DNA from: Chlorobiaceae bacterium
GTDB lineage: Bacteria > Bacteroidota > Chlorobiia > Chlorobiales > Chlorobiaceae
Direction of reading: 5' to 3'
Length of the DNA stretch: 38,703 nucleotides
Assembly (NCBI GenBank): GCA_013334755.1
Contig: JAAXWX010000018.1
Location: 1-38,703, forward strand
Position numbers and translations under genes: made by a program. This document shows, piece after piece, positions 9,473-18,110 of this stretch (position 1 is its first letter; every line of letters begins with the position of its first letter). The notes under the pieces were generated by a model. The model ran no database searches, was not told the DNA's origin, and saw only the letters and a program-made list of their open reading frames with translations.

Positions 9473-10327
9473 TTATGGTTGCGAGGACGTGATTGAAACA
9501 GCGATATCCGAAGGCTTGCCGAAATAGACCGAAGAGAGAACAAGCATGTCAACACCAGATTCAGCATACGTTGCAGCATTATTAATAGTTATACCGCCAG
9601 CTGCAGAGATGGTGACACCGGGTGCCACTTTGTGTAATTGCTGAACCAGCCGTGAGAGCTCTTCAGGCGTGAGCTTGTCCAGTTGAACCACATCAACGCC
9701 AGCAGCCGCAATGGCAAGCGCCTCCTCGGTGTTCTGGGCCTCAACAATGATTTTTTGTTCAGGTGCTTTCTTTTTCAGTCCGCTCACAGTTTGAAGAAAG
9801 CGCTCAATTCCGCCACAAAATGCGGTATGTTGCCGGAAGACAAGCACTGATTCCGACAGGCCGAGCCGATGGGGGAGTGCACCGCCAGCCATGATTGCTT
9901 TGATTGCAACCTTTTTTGTACCCGGAAACGACTTGCGGGTTGTGACGATGGTAATGGATGCATTAACCTCTTTGACCTGGTTGACTATTTTTTGTGTTCG
10001 TGTAGCAATACCTGACGCATACTCCAGCATATTCAGCGCCACTTTCCAGCCAGCGTGAAGGCTGTCAGCAGAGCCGCTGGCCGAGAGGATGGTGACACCT
10101 GAGTCAATTGTTGTCCCGCTCTGCAGAAAAAAACTTACTGTCGCACCACATCGCTCAAGGATACGCGCAGCTTCCTCTGTACAGCAAAGTGTTGTTGTTT
10201 CACGGCTTGTATAGGTGATTTCTCCCTGAAGTGCGCCGATTCCGAGCAGTGAAGTTGTGAGATCACCGTATGGCATATCCTCTTCGATAAATCGTTCAAT
10301 TTCATTGTCAGGCAGTTGATAAAGCAT
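9473..10327 (-). CDS. modD: ModD, quinolinate phosphoribosyltransferase-like protein of the mod operon
   Basis: This 284-residue protein has the two-domain fold pattern of nicotinate-nucleotide pyrophosphorylase. Its N-terminus EEDMPYGDLTT and internal TTRKSFPGTKK and AGGALPHRLGLSES segments are diagnostic of the ModD branch, where NadC has TRKTxPGxR and GGGxxHRxGL. ModD proteins are usually encoded in molybdate-transport operons, and their exact reaction is not settled. It is the first gene of the unit modD-modA-modB-modC-SDR. True NadC would have to be encoded elsewhere. Confidence 0.85.
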   Translation of the reverse strand: MLYQLPDNEIERFIEEDMPYGDLTTSLLGIGALQGEITYTSRETTTLCCTEEAARILERCGATVSFFLQSGTTIDSGVTILSASGSADSLHAGWKVALNMLEYASGIATRTQKIVNQVKEVNASITIVTTRKSFPGTKKVAIKAIMAGGALPHRLGLSESVLVFRQHTAFCGGIERFLQTVSGLKKKAPEQKIIVEAQNTEEALAIAAAGVDVVQLDKLTPEELSRLVQQLHKVAPGVTISAAGGITINNAATYAESGVDMLVLSSVYFGKPSDIAVSITSSQP

Positions 10328-10852
10328 GAATACGTTATTTTATCGTTATAACATTGTAAATATTACCAATGCATAAAAAAAGACATAAACGGCTGGAAAT
10401 TTTGAATTCGGTACCTGCAGGCAGGAGTTTATCATCGCCTGCAGTAGTGAGGGAGTGCCGTTATTATTAATATATTTTTGGATTTAATATTAAAAAATAA
10501 GAAAATATAGCCAATAATACTTAAAAGTTTAATTTAATCATCTTTTCTTTGATGATTGTTTGTACATAAATGTTGTTATAGAAGAGCGCTGAGTGGTGAA
10601 TAATGTTTTGTCTTTTTATTCGTTAAGTAATTTATAATATAGCGCTTTGCCTCTTTTATGAAAATCCAGTGAGAGGGTCCTCTTTTTTTCAGATATTGGT
10701 GTCAACCATGGTATTTGAGTCTCGATTACTGAGGTGTTACTGAGGCAGTGAGTTGTACTGGGGAGTCGCGGCAAGTTATTAAAGGCACTTTCTTAAGTCA
10801 TAGTGACTCTAAGTTGCAAAAAGTGGGCCCATAGGGTGAGTGGAGAATGATT
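10328..10852. other. Gene-free, AT-rich spacer between the divergent mod and ars operons
   Basis: No credible coding sequence is seen on either strand. The stretch 10455-10660 is strongly AT-rich. It contains an 8-bp inverted repeat, CTGCAGGC (10415-10422) and GCCTGCAG (10437-10444), and a smaller dyad AGTCA-TAG-TGACT (10796-10808). Both divergent operons must draw their promoters from here. I found no cobalamin, TPP or other riboswitch consensus that I could defend. Confidence 0.6.
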
Positions 10853-10881
10853 TTGCTTTTTTTTATAATTAATCGTATAAT
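10853..10881 (+). promoter_or_regulatory. Sigma-70-type promoter of the ars operon
   Basis: A -35 box TTGCTT (10853-10858) and a perfect -10 box TATAAT (10876-10881) are separated by exactly 17 bp. Transcription would start near 10888, about 25 nt before the ATG at 10913. This argues against upstream ATG codons at 10847 and 10886 as the arsR start. Confidence 0.7.
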
Positions 10882-10890
10882 TGCGATGAA
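10871..10890. promoter_or_regulatory. Candidate ArsR operator 1, over the -10 box
   Basis: The core is the dyad ATCG-N8-CGAT at 10872-10887. The 20-bp segment AATCGTATAATTGCGATGAA matches another at 11343-11362 at 16 of 20 positions. It covers the -10 box of the arsR promoter, where a bound repressor would block RNA polymerase. Assignment to ArsR is inferred from position and duplication. Confidence 0.6.
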
Positions 10891-10912
10891 CTATAAGAAA
10901 GAATATGCAATT

Positions 10913-11248
10913 ATGAAGAGAAGCTTATCGGTTGTTGAGTACAGAGGGGAAGAGATGGTTATGGCGTCGATTGCCAAGGCTATAAGTCATCCGGTCAGGA
11001 TTAAAATTCTGGAGTTGCTTGCCAGCCAGCAATGTTGTTTTACAGGGGAGTTAACGGAGATTATTCCAATGGCACAGTCGACGATTTCACAGCACCTCAA
11101 GGCGTTGCTCGATGCCGGGCTGATACAGGGAGAGATCAACCCGCCGAAAGTCCGTTACTGCATTAATGTTGAGAACTGGCACAAGGCTCATGTAATGTTC
11201 GGGAGTTTTTTTGTACCCGATCGATTATCCGGTTGTCAGTGCTGCTGA
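10913..11248 (+). CDS. arsR: ArsR-family arsenic-responsive repressor
   Basis: This 111-residue winged-helix repressor carries AKAISHPVRIKILELLA and a recognition helix AQSTISQHLKALLDAGLI, both typical of ArsR/SmtB proteins. The classic ELCVC site of E. coli ArsR is absent. Candidate As(III) ligands are C41-C42 (QQCCF) and a C-terminal CQCC (C108, C110, C111), suggesting an alternative sensor site of the kind known in other ArsR branches. The frame is open back to an ATG at 10847, but the promoter and operator lie inside that extension, so I place the start at 10913. It heads a ten-gene arsenic cluster and probably represses it until arsenite binds. Confidence 0.88.
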   Translation: MKRSLSVVEYRGEEMVMASIAKAISHPVRIKILELLASQQCCFTGELTEIIPMAQSTISQHLKALLDAGLIQGEINPPKVRYCINVENWHKAHVMFGSFFVPDRLSGCQCC

Positions 11249-11342
11249 GCAGAGCTTATTTAATCCTTGAGAAATACAACAGGATGTGCCACGGTTGTGC
11301 ATGCAGAGGGGAGGATGGAAATAAAAATTGATTTTTTCTAAT

Positions 11343-11362
11343 AATCGTTCATTTGCGATAAA
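11343..11362. promoter_or_regulatory. Candidate ArsR operator 2, before the thioredoxin gene
   Basis: AATCGTTCATTTGCGATAAA repeats the segment at 10871-10890 with 16 of 20 identical bases and the same ATCG-N8-CGAT spacing (11344-11359). It lies 20 bp before the ATG at 11382. No convincing -35/-10 pair could be placed around it. It may mark a second regulated start or act with site 1. Confidence 0.55.
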
Positions 11363-11381: not shown

Positions 11382-11684
11382 ATGAAAAAGGTAAAAATTC
11401 TTGGGAGCGGCTGTGCGAAATGCAATCAGCTTCTCGATGCAGTAAAGGCAGTTATTGCTGCAGAAGGTATTGACGCTTCAGTGGAAAAGGTAGAAGATAT
11501 TCAGCAGATCATGGCTTACAACGTGATTTCTACTCCGGCGCTTGTCGTTGATGAACAGGTACTCTGCAAAGGGCGGATTCCTTCTTATGATGAACTCAAG
11601 GAGCTGCTGACGGCAAAATCACAAGGGTGTTGCGGTTCTCATGGCACCAAATCGACAGCAGGCGGTTCAAGCTGCTGTTGTTAA
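11382..11684 (+). CDS. Small redox-active thioredoxin-like protein with Cys-rich tail
   Basis: This 100-residue protein matches the small 'redox-active disulfide protein 2' group of thioredoxin-fold proteins. Its active site GCAKC (C11, C14) follows the first beta strand, and the cis-proline segment STPALVVDE is intact. Beyond the fold, a 25-residue tail carries CC and a final CCC, which could bind soft metal ions such as arsenite. No signal peptide is seen. Such proteins often sit next to DUF318/ArsP permeases, and that is the next gene here, 77 bp downstream. A role as reductant or carrier in arsenic handling is inferred from context. Confidence 0.82.
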   Translation: MKKVKILGSGCAKCNQLLDAVKAVIAAEGIDASVEKVEDIQQIMAYNVISTPALVVDEQVLCKGRIPSYDELKELLTAKSQGCCGSHGTKSTAGGSSCCC

Positions 11685-11761: not shown

Positions 11762-12826
11762 ATGAAGCAGGGTTCCATGCAACAATTCTCCGAAGGCCCC
11801 TGGTTCCAACAGGTGAAATGGATTTCCGGTTTTTTATTTGCGGCACTGCTCTGGGTTATTATATACAGTAACCTTGATTGGTGTGCAGGTATGCTGCTTC
11901 ATCTTTCAGGGATCAGCCGCGCAAACCGTTTCGGCGAAGCGCTTTACTTCTTTGTTTACGAGGTGCCGAAAGTGCTGTTGTTGCTCACTGCAGTGGTCTT
12001 TGTGATGGGTGTCATACATACGTTTATTTCTGCCGAGCATACCCGGGCATTGCTTTCGGGTCGGCGTACCGGGTTTGGAAACATTATGGCGGCCTCTCTT
12101 GGTATTGTTACACCGTTCTGTTCCTGCTCTGCAGTACCACTGTTTATCGGCTTTCTTCAGGCCGGTGTGCCGCTTGGCGTCACCTTTTCCTTTCTTATTG
12201 CAGCTCCGATGATCAATGAGGTTGCCCTTGCACTGCTGTTCGGCATGTTCGGCTGGAAGGTTGCCCTGCTCTATTCCTCAATGGGTCTTGCTGTTGCAAT
12301 TGTTGCTGGCGTGGTAATCGGCAAGCTTCGTATGGAGCGCTATCTTGAAGAGTGGGTGCAGAAGCTGCAGGAGAGAACGGTTTCATCAGAAGTGGACAGC
12401 GAGCCAATGAGCCTCACGCTTCGCATACAGGAAGGTATCAGCCATGTTCGCGATATAGTGGGCAAGGTGTGGCTTTACATTGTTATTGGTGTAGGTCTCG
12501 GAGCTGCAATACATGGCTATGTGCCGGAAAACTTCATGGCGTCACTGATGGGCAAAAGTGTCTGGTGGTCGGTGCCTGTCGCTGTCTTGATCGGCGTTCC
12601 CATGTATTCCAATGCGGCGGGTATTCTTCCTGTTGTGCAGGCTTTGCTTGGCAAGGGAGCAGCCCTTGGTACGGTGATGGCCTTCATGATGAGCGTCATC
12701 GCCCTCTCTGCACCGGAGATGATTATTTTACGCAAGGTACTGAAGCCACAGCTTATTGCGGTCTTTGCCGGGGTTGTCGCAGCAGGGATCATGCTGGTGG
12801 GTTTTGTCTTCAATCTTGTTTTATGA
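11762..12826 (+). CDS. ArsP-like permease (DUF318/PF03773 family)
   Basis: This 354-residue protein has about eight to ten hydrophobic helices. The family signature TPFCSCSAVPLFIGF (C120, C122) is followed by AGVPLGVTFSFLIAAPMINEVAL, and the second half repeats the theme with GVPMYSNAAGILPV. The family includes ArsP, which exports trivalent organoarsenicals such as methylarsenite and roxarsone products. In this position a role in organoarsenical or arsenite export is likely, but the substrate is inferred from the family and neighbours. M6 is an alternative start. Confidence 0.82.
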   Translation: MKQGSMQQFSEGPWFQQVKWISGFLFAALLWVIIYSNLDWCAGMLLHLSGISRANRFGEALYFFVYEVPKVLLLLTAVVFVMGVIHTFISAEHTRALLSGRRTGFGNIMAASLGIVTPFCSCSAVPLFIGFLQAGVPLGVTFSFLIAAPMINEVALALLFGMFGWKVALLYSSMGLAVAIVAGVVIGKLRMERYLEEWVQKLQERTVSSEVDSEPMSLTLRIQEGISHVRDIVGKVWLYIVIGVGLGAAIHGYVPENFMASLMGKSVWWSVPVAVLIGVPMYSNAAGILPVVQALLGKGAALGTVMAFMMSVIALSAPEMIILRKVLKPQLIAVFAGVVAAGIMLVGFVFNLVL

Positions 12827-12854: not shown

Positions 12855-13283
12855 ATGAAAAAATCAGTGCTTATTCTCTGTACCGGAAATTCCTGCCGCA
12901 GCCAGATGGCAGAAGGGTTTCTCCGTTCATTTGATTCCTCAATTGAGGTCTTTTCTGCAGGAACAAAACCAGCGGAATCGGTTCATCCGCTTGCGGTCAA
13001 GGTTATGCATGAAGAGTGGATAGATATCAGCAAGAACATGCCGAAAAGTGTCGATGTATTTCTTGGCCGACCCTTTGACTATGTTATAACGGTGTGCGAC
13101 GGAGCCAATGAGTCCTGCCCGGTATTTATCGGCAAGGTGGAGCATCGACTGCACATCGGCTTTGATGATCCGGCAGAGGCGGAAGGAACTATGGAAGAGA
13201 TGCTTGCCGTTTTCAGGCGAGTTCGTAACGAAATCAACCAGCGCTTCCGGCAGTTCTATAACGAGAATTTAATCATGAAATAA
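12855..13283 (+). CDS. arsC: Arsenate reductase, thioredoxin-coupled LMW-phosphatase type (copy 1)
   Basis: This 142-residue enzyme would reduce arsenate to arsenite. It has the low-molecular-weight phosphatase P-loop CTGNSCRSQ with nucleophile C9 and R15. C81 and C88 in [14 protein letters not shown] match the spacing of the Cys82/Cys89 redox pair of S. aureus ArsC, so the thioredoxin-dependent triple-Cys mechanism is intact. The stop lies 2 bp before acr3, which allows the arsenite formed to be exported at once. It is clearly diverged from the second copy at 14368. Confidence 0.9.
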
Positions 13284-13285
13284 TC

Positions 13286-14341
13286 ATGAGTATTGATGCA
13301 AAACAGTTGTCGTTCCTTGATCGATATCTGACACTCTGGATTTTTTTTGCCATGGGCGTCGGAGTGCTTTCCGGATGGCTCTATCCTGAAATTTCAGGGT
13401 TCTGGAGCCTTTTTCAGTCGGGTACAACCAATATGCTTATAGCCGCAGGGCTCATTGTCATGATGTACCCGCCTCTGGCAAAAGTAAAATATGAAGAACT
13501 TGGCGATGTGTTTCGTAATACGAAAGTGCTTATGCTGTCGCTGGTGCAGAACTGGATAATCGGCCCGATCCTGATGTTTGTGCTTGCCGTGCTGCTGCTT
13601 TCCGATATGCCGCACTATATGGCCGGACTCATTATGATCGGCCTTGCTCGCTGCATCGCTATGGTCATTGTCTGGAATGAACTGGCTAAAGGAGATACGG
13701 AGTATGCCGCCGGGCTTGTCGCCTTCAACTCAATTTTCCAGGTACTCTTCTTTCCCCTCTATGCATGGATTTTTCTGACGGTGTTGCCGAAGTGGCTTGG
13801 CATCAGCTCTTTTGCTGTTGACATATCCATAGCTGACATTGCAGTTTCCGTCTTTATCTATCTCGGCATTCCCTTTATTGCAGGATTCCTCACTCGCTTT
13901 ATCATGCTGCGTCTGAAAGGGAAGGAGTGGTATGAGGCAGAGTTTATTCCCCGCATCAGCCCGCTCACACTGGTGGCGCTGCTCTTCACCATTGTTGTGA
14001 TGTTTTCACTGAAGGGCGAATACATCGTTAAAATTCCTCTGGATGTGGTGCGCATTGCCATCCCTCTTCTGATCTACTTTGTGATCATGTTTCTGCTCTC
14101 GTTTTACATGGGCCGCAAGATTGGTGCAGGCTACTCCAAAACGGCAACACTGGCGTTCACGGCAGCGAGCAACAACTTTGAACTCGCCATTGCAGTTGCT
14201 GTAGCTGTTTTCGGTATCAGCTCCGGCGAGGCTTTTGCCGCAGTGATTGGGCCCCTTGTGGAAGTTCCGGCCTTGATAGCGCTGGTTAATGTATCGCTCT
14301 GGTTCAGGGGAAAATATTTCGTGGAAACAATAGAAGCCTGA
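13286..14341 (+). CDS. acr3: Acr3-type arsenite efflux permease
   Basis: This 351-residue membrane protein has about ten helices, as in the Acr3 (BASS superfamily) arsenite exporters. The diagnostic segment [19 protein letters not shown] holds the conserved Cys (C123), and [20 protein letters not shown] matches the conserved ninth-helix region. It expels arsenite from the cytoplasm and can work alone or possibly with the ArsA ATPase encoded downstream. The ATG follows the arsC stop by 2 bp. Confidence 0.92.
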
Positions 14342-14367: not shown

Positions 14368-14823
14368 ATGAAAAAACAAAACGTGCTTTTTCTTTGTACC
14401 GGCAACTCTTGCCGGAGTCAGATGGCCGAAGGATTGCTCCGACACCTGGCAGGGGAGCAGTTCGAAGCATTAAGTGCAGGACTTGAGCCCAATAATGAAG
14501 TCCATCCTCTGGCGATAATCGTTATGGAGGAAATTGGTATCGATATCAGTTCTCAGCAACCAAAAGCGGTTGATGTCTATCTTGGAAAAACAATGATTCA
14601 TTATCTGATGATTGTGTGTAACAAGGCACAGTCAACCTGCCCTCGCGTCTGGCCCGGGCTTCCCGATGAAAAACGTTATTACTGGCCGGTTGATGATCCG
14701 GCAGTACTATCCAGCTCAACAGAAGAACAGCTGGTCGTTTTCCGTGAGGTGCGTGATGAACTTCAGGGAAAAATAACCTCATGGCTTAACGACGTTTCAG
14801 CGTCGGCTTCATTTACTATTTAA
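14368..14823 (+). CDS. arsC: Arsenate reductase, LMW-phosphatase type (copy 2)
   Basis: This second 151-residue ArsC has the P-loop [13 protein letters not shown] (nucleophile C10) and the redox pair C84 and C91 (VCNKAQSTCP). It keeps the YYWPVDDPA segment close to that of classical ArsC proteins, whereas copy 1 has LHIGFDDPA. All catalytic Cys are intact in both, so neither looks decayed. It follows acr3 by 26 bp and precedes arsD by 12 bp. The two copies may differ in substrate affinity or reductant, or one may have arrived with a different ars module. Confidence 0.88.
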   Translation: MKKQNVLFLCTGNSCRSQMAEGLLRHLAGEQFEALSAGLEPNNEVHPLAIIVMEEIGIDISSQQPKAVDVYLGKTMIHYLMIVCNKAQSTCPRVWPGLPDEKRYYWPVDDPAVLSSSTEEQLVVFREVRDELQGKITSWLNDVSASASFTI

Positions 14824-14835
14824 TCAAGATTCAAC

Positions 14836-15183
14836 ATGAAAGGAATTCAGGTTTTTGATCCGGCACTCTGCTGCAGTACGGGCGTGTGCGGTACCGATGT
14901 CGATCAGTCACTGGTAAATTTTGCTGCTGATGTTGATTGGGCAAAACAGAACGGCATTGTCATCGAGCGATTCAACCTGGCCAAAGAACCGCTCTCCTTT
15001 GCAGAAAATCCTGTCGTGAAATGTTTCCTTGAAGAGGCGGGCCATGAAGCGCTTCCGCTGATTCTTGTGGATGGCAAGGTTATTGTGGCTGGCCGGTATC
15101 CGAATCGCTCGGAACTGGCCCGATGGGCAGGTTACACGCCACCCTCTGAGAGTAAGGGCTGTTCGGGCAAATGCTGTTGTTGA
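14836..15183 (+). CDS. arsD: ArsD arsenite metallochaperone
   Basis: This 115-residue protein carries C12, C13 and C18 in PALCCSTGVCG, at the same positions as the arsenite-binding triad of E. coli plasmid ArsD. The C-terminal tail GCSGKCCC supplies further Cys residues as in ArsD. ArsD binds arsenite in the cytoplasm and hands it to ArsA, raising its affinity for arsenite. It directly precedes arsA, the usual arsDA order. Confidence 0.92.
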   Translation: MKGIQVFDPALCCSTGVCGTDVDQSLVNFAADVDWAKQNGIVIERFNLAKEPLSFAENPVVKCFLEEAGHEALPLILVDGKVIVAGRYPNRSELARWAGYTPPSESKGCSGKCCC

Positions 15184-15200
15184 AGTGCATAACTATGACC

Positions 15201-16967
15201 ATGAAATTTCTTGATTGTCCGCCCCGATTTCTCTTTTTTACCGGAAAAGGCGGAGTAGGAAAAACCTCTATTGCCTGTTCATCGGCGATAGATTTAACGG
15301 CAGCCGGCCGGCGAGTGCTGCTTGTCAGCACCGACCCGGCTTCAAATGTCGGGCAGGTGTTCGGTATCAGCATTGGCAGCCAGATCACGCCAATCCTGAC
15401 GGTTCCCGGTCTTTTTGCGCTTGAAATTGACCCTCAGGATGCGGCAGCGCAGTACCGCGAACGAATTGTCGGTCCGGTTCGCGGCCTGCTGCCGCAGAGT
15501 GTACTCAGTACCATTGAAGAGCAGCTTTCCGGAGCCTGCACGACCGAGATTGCCGCCTTTGATGAGTTTACCTCACTCCTGACCGACCAGGCTCTTTACG
15601 CCGACTACGATCACATCGTTTTTGACACAGCACCTACCGGTCATACCATCCGGATGTTACAGCTGCCCGGAGCCTGGAGCGGTTTTCTTGAAGAGGCAAA
15701 GGGTGATGCATCGTGCCTTGGCCCGCTGGCCGGCCTGGCAAAGCAGCGGAGCAAGTACAAAGAGGCCGTCGAAGCACTCTGTGATCCCATGCGAACCCGT
15801 ATGATTCTGGTATCCCGTGCCCAACAGACAGCCTTGCGCGAAGTTGCCCGAACCTTTGGAGAGCTTATGGCTATCGGTATCCCGCAACAATATCTCGTTA
15901 TAAACGGCCTCCTGGCCAGCAGTGAATCGTCTGCCGATGCGCTTGCGGCGGCTATCACTTCCCGGGAGCAGGCCGCAATGTCCGGGATGCCTGAACTGCT
16001 CAAGGCATTGCCGACAGATCGAATACCTCTCAAGGCATTCAATATGGTTGGCCTTGAGGCCTTGCGCCACTTACTTTCCGAAACAGATGCTCAATATCCC
16101 GCTTCGGTAAACAAGCCGGTCATACTCAACGCACCCGCCCTTTCACTTCTGGTCGATGATATTGCTGCCGATGGTCATGGTCTGGTGATGTTTATGGGTA
16201 AAGGAGGAGTTGGTAAAACTACCCTGGCCGCTGCCTTGGCCATTGAACTGGCTCATCGCGGATTACCGGTGCATCTCTCCACTTCTGATCCGGCGGCTCA
16301 TCTCATCGAAACGGTTACTGATACGCTGGAAAATCTTTTGGTAAGCAGAATTGATCCGCAAGTCGAAACCGAACGGTACCGGCGTGAGGTACTTGACTCC
16401 AAAGGAGCACAACTTGATGGTGAAGGCCGGGCGTTGCTCGAAGAGGATTTGCGCTCGCCCTGTACTGAAGAAATTGCTGTTTTCCAGGCTTTTTCGCGCA
16501 TCATCGGCGAGGCAGACAGGAAGTTTGTGGTAATGGATACTGCACCGACCGGTCACACGCTTCTGCTGCTTGACGCTACAGGAGCATATCACAGGGAATT
16601 CACCCGTCAGGCGGGGCGCAATGCCTTGTATAACGTTACGCCTATGATGCAGATGCAGGACCGGAAACAAACAAAGGTTCTTATAGTAACATTGGCTGAA
16701 ACGACGCCCGTGCTGGAAGCCGCCACTCTGCAGGAAGATTTGCGACGGGCTTCTATTGAGCCGTGGGCCTGGATCATCAATAACAGTGTTGCGGCAGCAG
16801 TGACCAGCTCCCCTCTTCTGAGAGAACGAGCGATGAATGAGCTCGCGGAGATCGATGCTGTGGCTCAGCAACATGCCAGTCGGTATGCTGTTGTTCCCTT
16901 GTTGAAAGAAGAGCCTGTAGGCGATAGAGCTTTGCGCTCCCTCATATATGCAAACGATGGGGGATGA
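15201..16967 (+). CDS. arsA: ArsA arsenite-stimulated ATPase (tandem A1-A2)
   Basis: This 588-residue protein has two homologous halves, each with a P-loop GKGGVGKT (about 15-22 and 333-340) and a DTAPTGHT signature. From the ATG at 15201 the metal-site cysteines fall at C113, C172 and C421, against C113, C172 and C422 in E. coli ArsA. That agreement supports this start over ATG at 15171 (inside arsD) or 15195. ArsA hydrolyses ATP to drive arsenite export through the membrane partner, which here would be Acr3 since no ArsB is present. Acr3-ArsA coupling is inferred from context. Confidence 0.95.
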   Translation: MKFLDCPPRFLFFTGKGGVGKTSIACSSAIDLTAAGRRVLLVSTDPASNVGQVFGISIGSQITPILTVPGLFALEIDPQDAAAQYRERIVGPVRGLLPQSVLSTIEEQLSGACTTEIAAFDEFTSLLTDQALYADYDHIVFDTAPTGHTIRMLQLPGAWSGFLEEAKGDASCLGPLAGLAKQRSKYKEAVEALCDPMRTRMILVSRAQQTALREVARTFGELMAIGIPQQYLVINGLLASSESSADALAAAITSREQAAMSGMPELLKALPTDRIPLKAFNMVGLEALRHLLSETDAQYPASVNKPVILNAPALSLLVDDIAADGHGLVMFMGKGGVGKTTLAAALAIELAHRGLPVHLSTSDPAAHLIETVTDTLENLLVSRIDPQVETERYRREVLDSKGAQLDGEGRALLEEDLRSPCTEEIAVFQAFSRIIGEADRKFVVMDTAPTGHTLLLLDATGAYHREFTRQAGRNALYNVTPMMQMQDRKQTKVLIVTLAETTPVLEAATLQEDLRRASIEPWAWIINNSVAAAVTSSPLLRERAMNELAEIDAVAQQHASRYAVVPLLKEEPVGDRALRSLIYANDGG

Positions 16968-17017: not shown

Positions 17018-17398
17018 ATGCAAAAAATGAAAAATAAGAGAGCCGTTTTTTTTATGGCTGCAATGTGTCTGCTTATGGTATTAAGCCCTTTACTGGCCAT
17101 TGCCAAGTCTCGGGTGACCTTTGTCGAGCTTGGTGCAACCTGGTGCACTCCGTGCAAGTTAATGCAGCCAGTGATGCGTTCACTTGAAAACAGGTATGGA
17201 GAGCAGCTCAAGGTTATATTTTATAACGTCTCCGCTCCTGAAGAGCGCAGCTATGCAAAACAGTATGGCATACGGTTAATTCCGACCCAGGTTTTTCTGG
17301 ATGAAAGTGGCAGAGAGTTTTTTCGGCATGAAGGATTTTTTCCTGAAGCAGAGATTGACAAACTCCTGAAGCAGCGCGGAATGAGACCAACAAACTGA
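17018..17398 (+). CDS. Exported thioredoxin-like protein
   Basis: This 126-residue protein begins with basic residues and a hydrophobic stretch (about 9-27), a signal peptide or membrane anchor ending near LAIAK. A thioredoxin fold follows, with active site WCTPC (C43, C46), cis-Pro segment LIPTQVFLDE and a C-terminal helix. It would work on the periplasmic side. Its partner is probably the CcdA-like protein encoded 10 bp downstream, which could pass electrons to it from cytoplasmic thioredoxin. M4 (17027) is an alternative start. It follows arsA by 50 bp on the same strand. Confidence 0.85.
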   Translation: MQKMKNKRAVFFMAAMCLLMVLSPLLAIAKSRVTFVELGATWCTPCKLMQPVMRSLENRYGEQLKVIFYNVSAPEERSYAKQYGIRLIPTQVFLDESGREFFRHEGFFPEAEIDKLLKQRGMRPTN

Positions 17399-17408
17399 CA
17401 GACAATTC

Positions 17409-18110
17409 ATGCTTGACTCTCTTTTTTCCGGGCTGACCATCGCATTAAGCCAAAGTTATCTTGTTGCTCTTGCGGCATCATTTGTCTGGGGAATACTCAG
17501 CGTCTTGCTCAGCCCCTGTCATCTTTCAGGTATTCCGCTTGTGATCGGTTATATCAGCAGTCATGGCCGGATAAAAGTACAGAGAACCGTTTACCTCTCG
17601 CTCCTTTTTGCGTCCGGCAGTTTAATGACCATCGCTGTTCTCGGAGTGATCACGGCCTCAATGGGCAGGATGCTTGGTGATACGGGGGAGTGGGGCAGTT
17701 ACGTTATTGCCGGAATCTTTATCGTGATGGGACTCTATCTGCTTGATATGATCAAGCTGAACTGGAATAGTATTGTGTTGGCCGATGAGCAGCGTGGAGG
17801 ACTGTGGGGAGCGTTTCTGCTGGGACTTCTTTTTGGTATAGGGCTTGGGCCATGTACCTTTGCTTTTCTTGCACCCGTTCTCGGTGTTGTTTTCAGTATT
17901 GCTTCCGACAGTTTGCTTAAAGCCATCGTGCTAATTGCTGCGTTTGGTACAGGTCATGCAACCGTTCTTGCCGTTGCCGGGAGTATGACAAATGTGGTTC
18001 AACATTATCTTGACTGGTCAGGCAGATCGGGTGTCGTGGTTTATCTCAAACGGTTTTTCGGGCTTATAGTTTTGATTGTCGGGCTCTGTTTTCTTTATGC
18101 AGCGTTGTGA
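17409..18110 (+). CDS. ccdA: CcdA/DsbD-type membrane thiol transporter
   Basis: This 233-residue protein has about six transmembrane helices. The two redox Cys of the family lie in SPCHLSG (C37) and GPCTFAF (C149), at the start of the two symmetrical halves as in CcdA. It carries reducing power from cytoplasmic thioredoxin across the membrane. CcdA usually serves cytochrome c maturation. Here, paired with an exported thioredoxin at the end of an ars cluster, it may instead keep periplasmic thiols reduced under arsenic stress, or simply be a neighbour. No terminator was found after it. Confidence 0.85.
   Translation: MLDSLFSGLTIALSQSYLVALAASFVWGILSVLLSPCHLSGIPLVIGYISSHGRIKVQRTVYLSLLFASGSLMTIAVLGVITASMGRMLGDTGEWGSYVIAGIFIVMGLYLLDMIKLNWNSIVLADEQRGGLWGAFLLGLLFGIGLGPCTFAFLAPVLGVVFSIASDSLLKAIVLIAAFGTGHATVLAVAGSMTNVVQHYLDWSGRSGVVVYLKRFFGLIVLIVGLCFLYAAL

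Follow-up and report, generated by a model that had tools for sequence, protein, structure and literature searches.

The operator closest to those considered here is that of ArArsR, the ArsR of Arsenicibacter rosenii, for which a DNase I footprint on TTTTATCGTAATATTGCGATCACAATC and a response to arsenite have been published (Zhang et al. 2025; PMC11868830). ArArsR binds As(III) through Cys41, Cys80 and Cys82, its C80S mutant responds to MAs(III) and not to As(III), and the one operator described for it lies upstream of arsR, over the -35 element (PMC11868830). The classical operators of the ArsR/SmtB family (arsRBC, cadCA, smt) are 12-2-12 inverted repeats with the core TAxAxTCAAATAxxTATTTGAxTxTA (PMC6555750). 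A third system is engineered: in E. coli reporters, a second ArsR site added downstream of arsR reduces background expression (Stocker 2003, as summarised in PMC3918153).

Here, we report the analysis of a 38,703-nucleotide stretch of a Chlorobiaceae genome (hereafter the window), in which two similar dyads flank an arsR gene. With a probability of roughly 0.87, the two serve as operators for the ArsR whose gene they enclose, the first being fused to the arsR promoter, an estimate that leaves aside the exact role of the second site.

The two dyads and the arsR gene

The original prediction singled out two 20-bp segments, 10871-10890 (AATCGTATAATTGCGATGAA) and 11343-11362 (AATCGTTCATTTGCGATAAA), and direct comparison confirms that they are identical at 16 of 20 positions and share the symmetry ATCG-N8-CGAT, at 10872-10887 (site 1) and 11344-11359 (site 2). 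The TTGCTT and TATAAT hexamers, 17 bp apart, that it placed at the first segment are present as described, and the second segment does lie just before the thioredoxin gene, 22 bp separating the end of site 2 from the ATG at 11382. The features concerned are the following.

10853..10858, + strand: -35-like TTGCTT of the arsR promoter, 17 bp before TATAAT (10876-10881), a weak match to TTGACA (3/6)
10872..10887, + strand: site 1, predicted ArsR operator core ATCGTATAATTGCGAT, containing TATAAT 10876-10881
10888..10894, + strand: downstream extension of site 1, GAACTAT here and GAACTAA in the family consensus (1.0-1.9 bits per position, 53 orthologs)
10913..11248, + strand: arsR, ArsR/SmtB repressor of 111 aa with conserved Cys41-Cys42 and Cys83 (Pfam HTH_5 and NCBIfam HTH_metalloreg, above cut-off)
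11332..11337, + strand: T-run TTTTTT, 6 nt 5' of site 2
11344..11359, + strand: site 2, core ATCGTTCATTTGCGAT of a predicted internal ArsR operator that has no TA where site 1 carries its promoter element

Taken by itself, the ATCG-N8-CGAT symmetry has three matches in the window for 0.74 expected from shuffles, a weak excess. Sites 1 and 2 are the only two occurrences of the fuller pattern TAATCGNNNANTTGCGAT in the 2.1-Mb genome. The window alone not being enough, the significance of the dyads comes from their conservation across genomes.

The protein encoded between the sites carries the winged helix-turn-helix domain of ArsR repressors (PF01022, 3.7e-14; NF033788, 64.4 bits for a cut-off of 55). 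The methionine at 10913 is the start in all 54 aligned orthologs, window included, and an in-frame stop lies within 75 nt upstream in 36 of the 54 (within 36 nt in 32), which bears out the predicted arsR start at 10913. The longer frame from the ATG at 10847 (133 aa) was rejected because the orthologs share the 10913 start and many of them carry stop codons ahead of the operator.

Comparison with described ArsR operators and sensors

ArArsR comes from the same phylum and from an ArsR subgroup that is homologous, and its operator, too, precedes arsR, in an ars operon under autoregulation (PMC11868830). Its footprinted core, ATCGTAATATTGCGAT, is identical to site 1 at 14 of 16 positions and to site 2 at 12 of 16, and a dyad of the ArArsR type (ATCGTA-N4-TRCGAT) stands just 5' of arsR at site 1. 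Because this nearest characterised case agrees so closely with site 1, ArsR binding is very likely here. The resemblance to the classical 12-2-12 operators lies in the presence, at a promoter, of an inverted repeat for a dimeric winged-helix metalloregulator (PMC6555750), but the repeat itself differs: it reads WTCGTA-N4-TACGAW, with the half-site WTCGTA, and TCAAATA-type half-sites were not found at the sites.

The sensor cysteines are conserved in part. Cys42 and Cys83 of the Chlorobiaceae proteins correspond to Cys41 and Cys82 of ArArsR and are invariant, whereas the equivalent of Cys80 is Arg or Lys in all 54 Chlorobiaceae orthologs; the complete ArArsR-type As(III) site (Cys41, Cys80 and Cys82) is thus missing from Chlorobiaceae ArsR. 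Neither does the protein have the type 1 site of R773 (Cys32-X-Cys34-X2-Cys37), the corresponding position reading CCFTGEL. An additional adjacent Cys41 creates a vicinal Cys41-Cys42 pair conserved in all Chlorobiaceae orthologs; possibly, this vicinal cysteine provides the third ligand, or MAs(III) is the preferred inducer.

Conservation and regulon in the Chlorobiaceae

A total of 61 Chlorobiaceae genomes were searched, and arsR orthologs were recovered in nearly all of them. The check proposed with the original prediction, a dyad upstream of arsR in related genomes, gave a uniform answer: the site 1 consensus ATCGTATATTTRCGATGAACTAA, or a close variant, lies 16-30 bp 5' of the arsR start in 53/53 other orthologs with readable upstream DNA. 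The core in the window carries an A at one position where these 53 all have T. Of 55 thioredoxin loci, the window among them, 46 have site 2 (consensus ATCGTTYATTTRCGAT) ahead of the gene, each keeping at least 12 of 14 positions, and since the other nine have lost it, site 2 is not essential.

Searched genome-wide, the pattern TCGTNNATTTRCGA gave about 118 matches in the 61 genomes, most of them flanking arsR, compared with roughly 12 when the pattern was reversed as a control. Matches occurred in 58 of the 61 genomes. In the other three (G001, G039 and G051) neither an arsR ortholog nor, in this whole-genome search, a site was found, and the single match of G005, scored as lacking arsR, falls at a contig end just 5' of a truncated arsR. 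Some matches, for instance in G037, are probably due to chance.

The operator was also found away from arsR, before dispersed relatives of the permease gene (L132, L133 and L134), before the thioredoxin/DsbD pair (L133, L135 and L136, the pair following the permease in L134) and before a copy of the thioredoxin gene (L131). That relocated relatives of the cluster genes carry their own operator argues that the predicted operator works in trans and is no mere local repeat. The cluster genes of the window are the following.

11382..11684, + strand: arsE-type thioredoxin (redox_disulf_2 / MTH895-ArsE family; TIGR00412 6.8e-32, PF13192)
11762..12826, + strand: ArsP_1-family permease (PF03773 8.6e-73)
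12855..13283, + strand: thioredoxin-type arsenate reductase-like LMW phosphatase (PF01451; TIGR02691 3e-35, below cut-off)
13286..14341, + strand: ACR3 arsenite efflux transporter (TIGR00832 8.9e-133)
14368..14823, + strand: second arsenate reductase-like LMW phosphatase (PF01451; TIGR02691 3.4e-33, below cut-off)
14836..15183, + strand: ArsD metallochaperone (NF033727 3.8e-39)
15171..16967, + strand: ArsA ATPase (TIGR04291 1.2e-264)
17018..18110, + strand: thioredoxin and DsbD_TM pair (Pfam), with relatives elsewhere under their own operator

Several further observations were made. The arsD (14836-15183) and arsA (15171-16967) genes share 13 bp, which suggests that their translation is coupled, and a ModD/NadC-like gene (9473-10327, minus strand; TIGR01334 above cut-off) lies upstream of the ars cluster. 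In G027, a second operator (ATCGTATGTTTGCGATGAAC, at L064:2412) followed by a 26-residue remnant of the arsR N-terminus is located about 1.2 kb upstream of an intact arsR, and this arrangement is a partial duplication. Orphan operators of the site 2 type, whose flanks are conserved, are present in G011 and G029 (L139:3052 and L142:3194, minus strand), situated shortly after a small possible membrane ORF with no ars gene nearby; in both genomes, the arsR-thioredoxin junction has no recognisable site 2.

Spread across the Bacteroidota

The original prediction considered the motif specific to this lineage, and this was wrong: besides the Arsenicibacter footprint, a dyad of the form [AT]TCG-N8-CGA[AT] lies within 120 bp upstream of arsR in 100 of 115 distinct loci from other Bacteroidota. 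A second one lies within 120 bp past the arsR stop in 54 of the 115. The reversed control pattern is found neither upstream nor downstream of arsR in these loci (0 and 0), and equal-sized stretches farther downstream gave 0, 2 and 1 matches. Of 46 loci with both sites, 45 have dyads of one class, ATCG or TTCG, at the two positions, which is what recognition by a single protein would lead one to expect.

Taken together, conservation in the family and the phylum and the footprinted homologous core strongly support the prediction that the dyads are an ArsR motif, and we consider it highly probable, from these comparisons, that both sites are ArsR operators. Our literature search returned nothing direct on Chlorobium ArsR operators; RegPrecise lay outside this search, so that an earlier prediction of the motif is possible.

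A predicted promoter element at site 1, mostly lost from site 2

At site 1, TATAAT and TTGCTT at 17 bp in the window, and TATATTTR in the orthologs, match a promoter by sequence. A mechanical promoter scan listed TGGAGA (10864-10869), 17 bp from TATAAT, instead of the TTGCTT pair. The Chlorobiaceae orthologs show T-rich/TTG information 19 to 16 bases 5' of the site 1 dyad. By contrast, site 2 (TTCATTTG) has no -10/-7 element within its dyad, and upstream of the Chlorobiaceae site 2 no -35/-33 information was found at the proper distance.

The A of the promoter element is present at 52/53 copies of site 1, 2/46 copies of site 2 and 7/7 stand-alone sites, which would have to act as promoters on their own, in the Chlorobiaceae, and the promoter form TAnnTTT[GA] at 72/100 copies of site 1 vs 10/54 of site 2 in other Bacteroidota, counts that treat related genomes as independent, so that their p-values overstate certainty. 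TAnnTTTG is the -7 consensus of Bacteroidetes and may not be that of Chlorobi. The notion of a duplicated dyad hence holds insofar as both dyads are real; they are not equivalent, as each has its own conserved consensus and the promoter element belongs to site 1 only. On that ground, the reading of site 2 as merely a duplicate of site 1 was rejected.

That site 1 is a promoter operator is well supported by these sequence features. Its dyad contains the -10/-7 element, so that a bound ArsR dimer would exclude RNA polymerase and arsR would stay autorepressed until As(III) or MAs(III) frees the DNA of ArsR. Transcription may plausibly begin near 10888, and the extension at 10888-10894 is a probable transcript start region and/or additional ArsR contact. 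An operator pair flanking arsR, of which only the first is fused to a promoter, looks to be a new architecture, and no description of such a phylum-wide pair was found in the literature searched.

The role of site 2

Site 2 would act as an internal operator separating arsR from the genes for thioredoxin, permease, ArsC, ACR3, ArsD and ArsA. The reading we favour is that of a roadblock without a promoter: basal arsR transcripts would be kept from reaching the detoxification genes while some ArsR is still made. It is favoured because the TA that marks the promoter element is missing from site 2, and we give it an even chance. It also fits the E. coli bioreporter, in which one ArsR site precedes arsR and another lies between arsR and the next gene, and the second site lowers the background; that system is engineered, its operator sequence is unrelated and the background effect was measured there only (PMC3918153, in its account of these constructs).

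Alternatively, site 2 might control a second promoter, P2, from which thioredoxin and the downstream genes would be transcribed apart from arsR, a possibility that we consider less likely. An intrinsic terminator overlapping the arsR stop codon precedes site 2 in 15 of 52 Bacteroidota loci (1.8 expected from shuffles), in gut Bacteroidales, where the later genes would need their own promoter; P2 is thus more likely in some Bacteroidales. In the window, a weak AATAAT (9/12 with TGGAAA at 18 bp) adjoins site 2, and the AACNAA bases 3' of both sites are conserved, also in line with P2. Against it, site 2 seldom retains the promoter TA, which is kept in all stand-alone operators, the -35/-33 information is missing from the Chlorobiaceae site 2, and the window, despite its T-run, has no hairpin above shuffles before site 2 (fold z-score 0.42) and no match in a terminator scan.

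The T-run is itself associated with the second operator in the phylum, being present in 37/54 loci of other Bacteroidota with site 2 vs 7/60 without. Outside the Chlorobiaceae, its end lies 9.8 +/- 0.7 nt from site 2, whereas its position relative to the arsR stop is variable (sd 5.3); the spacing is looser in Chlorobiaceae, with the 6-nt gap of the window. A T-run at a fixed distance from a second operator suggests repressor-assisted termination, in which site 2 would act as a ligand-controlled terminator: bound ArsR would stall RNA polymerase over the T-run about 10 bp upstream, release would follow and arsenite would lift the stop. We regard this as doubtful overall; the data suggest that it fits best in Bacteroidota outside the Chlorobiaceae and less well in the window (6-nt gap, no hairpin). 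In yeast, the Pol I terminator consists of a T-rich element and bound Reb1. The Bacteroidota site 2 resembles it in having a T-run a fixed short distance before the site of a bound protein, but the analogy concerns layout only, involves another domain of life and does not extend to the window, whose spacing is not the fixed 10 bp. A role of site 2 other than roadblock or second promoter is unlikely.

Cooperation of the two operators via DNA looping across arsR would account for two strong sites some 380-540 bp apart. Their spacing shows no helical phasing (Rayleigh p ~0.08-0.5), on which ground looping was rejected, and ArsR proteins function as dimers that are not known to tetramerise; looping is very improbable.

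That the dyad might instead be the site of another regulator, or a mere promoter element shared by unrelated genes, is brought to mind by the overlap of the site 1 core with a TATAAT-like element, but is scarcely credible: the sites follow the presence of arsR and flank arsR itself, a homologous ArsR footprints the same core, and site 2 retains the dyad without the promoter element. Chance similarity in AT-rich spacers, to which the weak excess of bare matches in the window might point, is refuted by conservation (53/53 and 46/55 in the family, recurrence throughout the phylum, control patterns near zero).

Implications

For arsenic resistance in green sulfur bacteria, this work yields an operator and a regulon with good support, and it widens a footprint known from one species to a whole phylum. 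Since the T-run keeps a fixed distance to the second operator, repressor-assisted termination can be tested directly; if true, such termination would amount to a bacterial equivalent of the protein-assisted, Reb1-type process and would be widespread in the ars operons of Bacteroidota. If site 2 is the roadblock that we favour, nature would already be using an arrangement that was built into arsenic biosensors to lower background expression.
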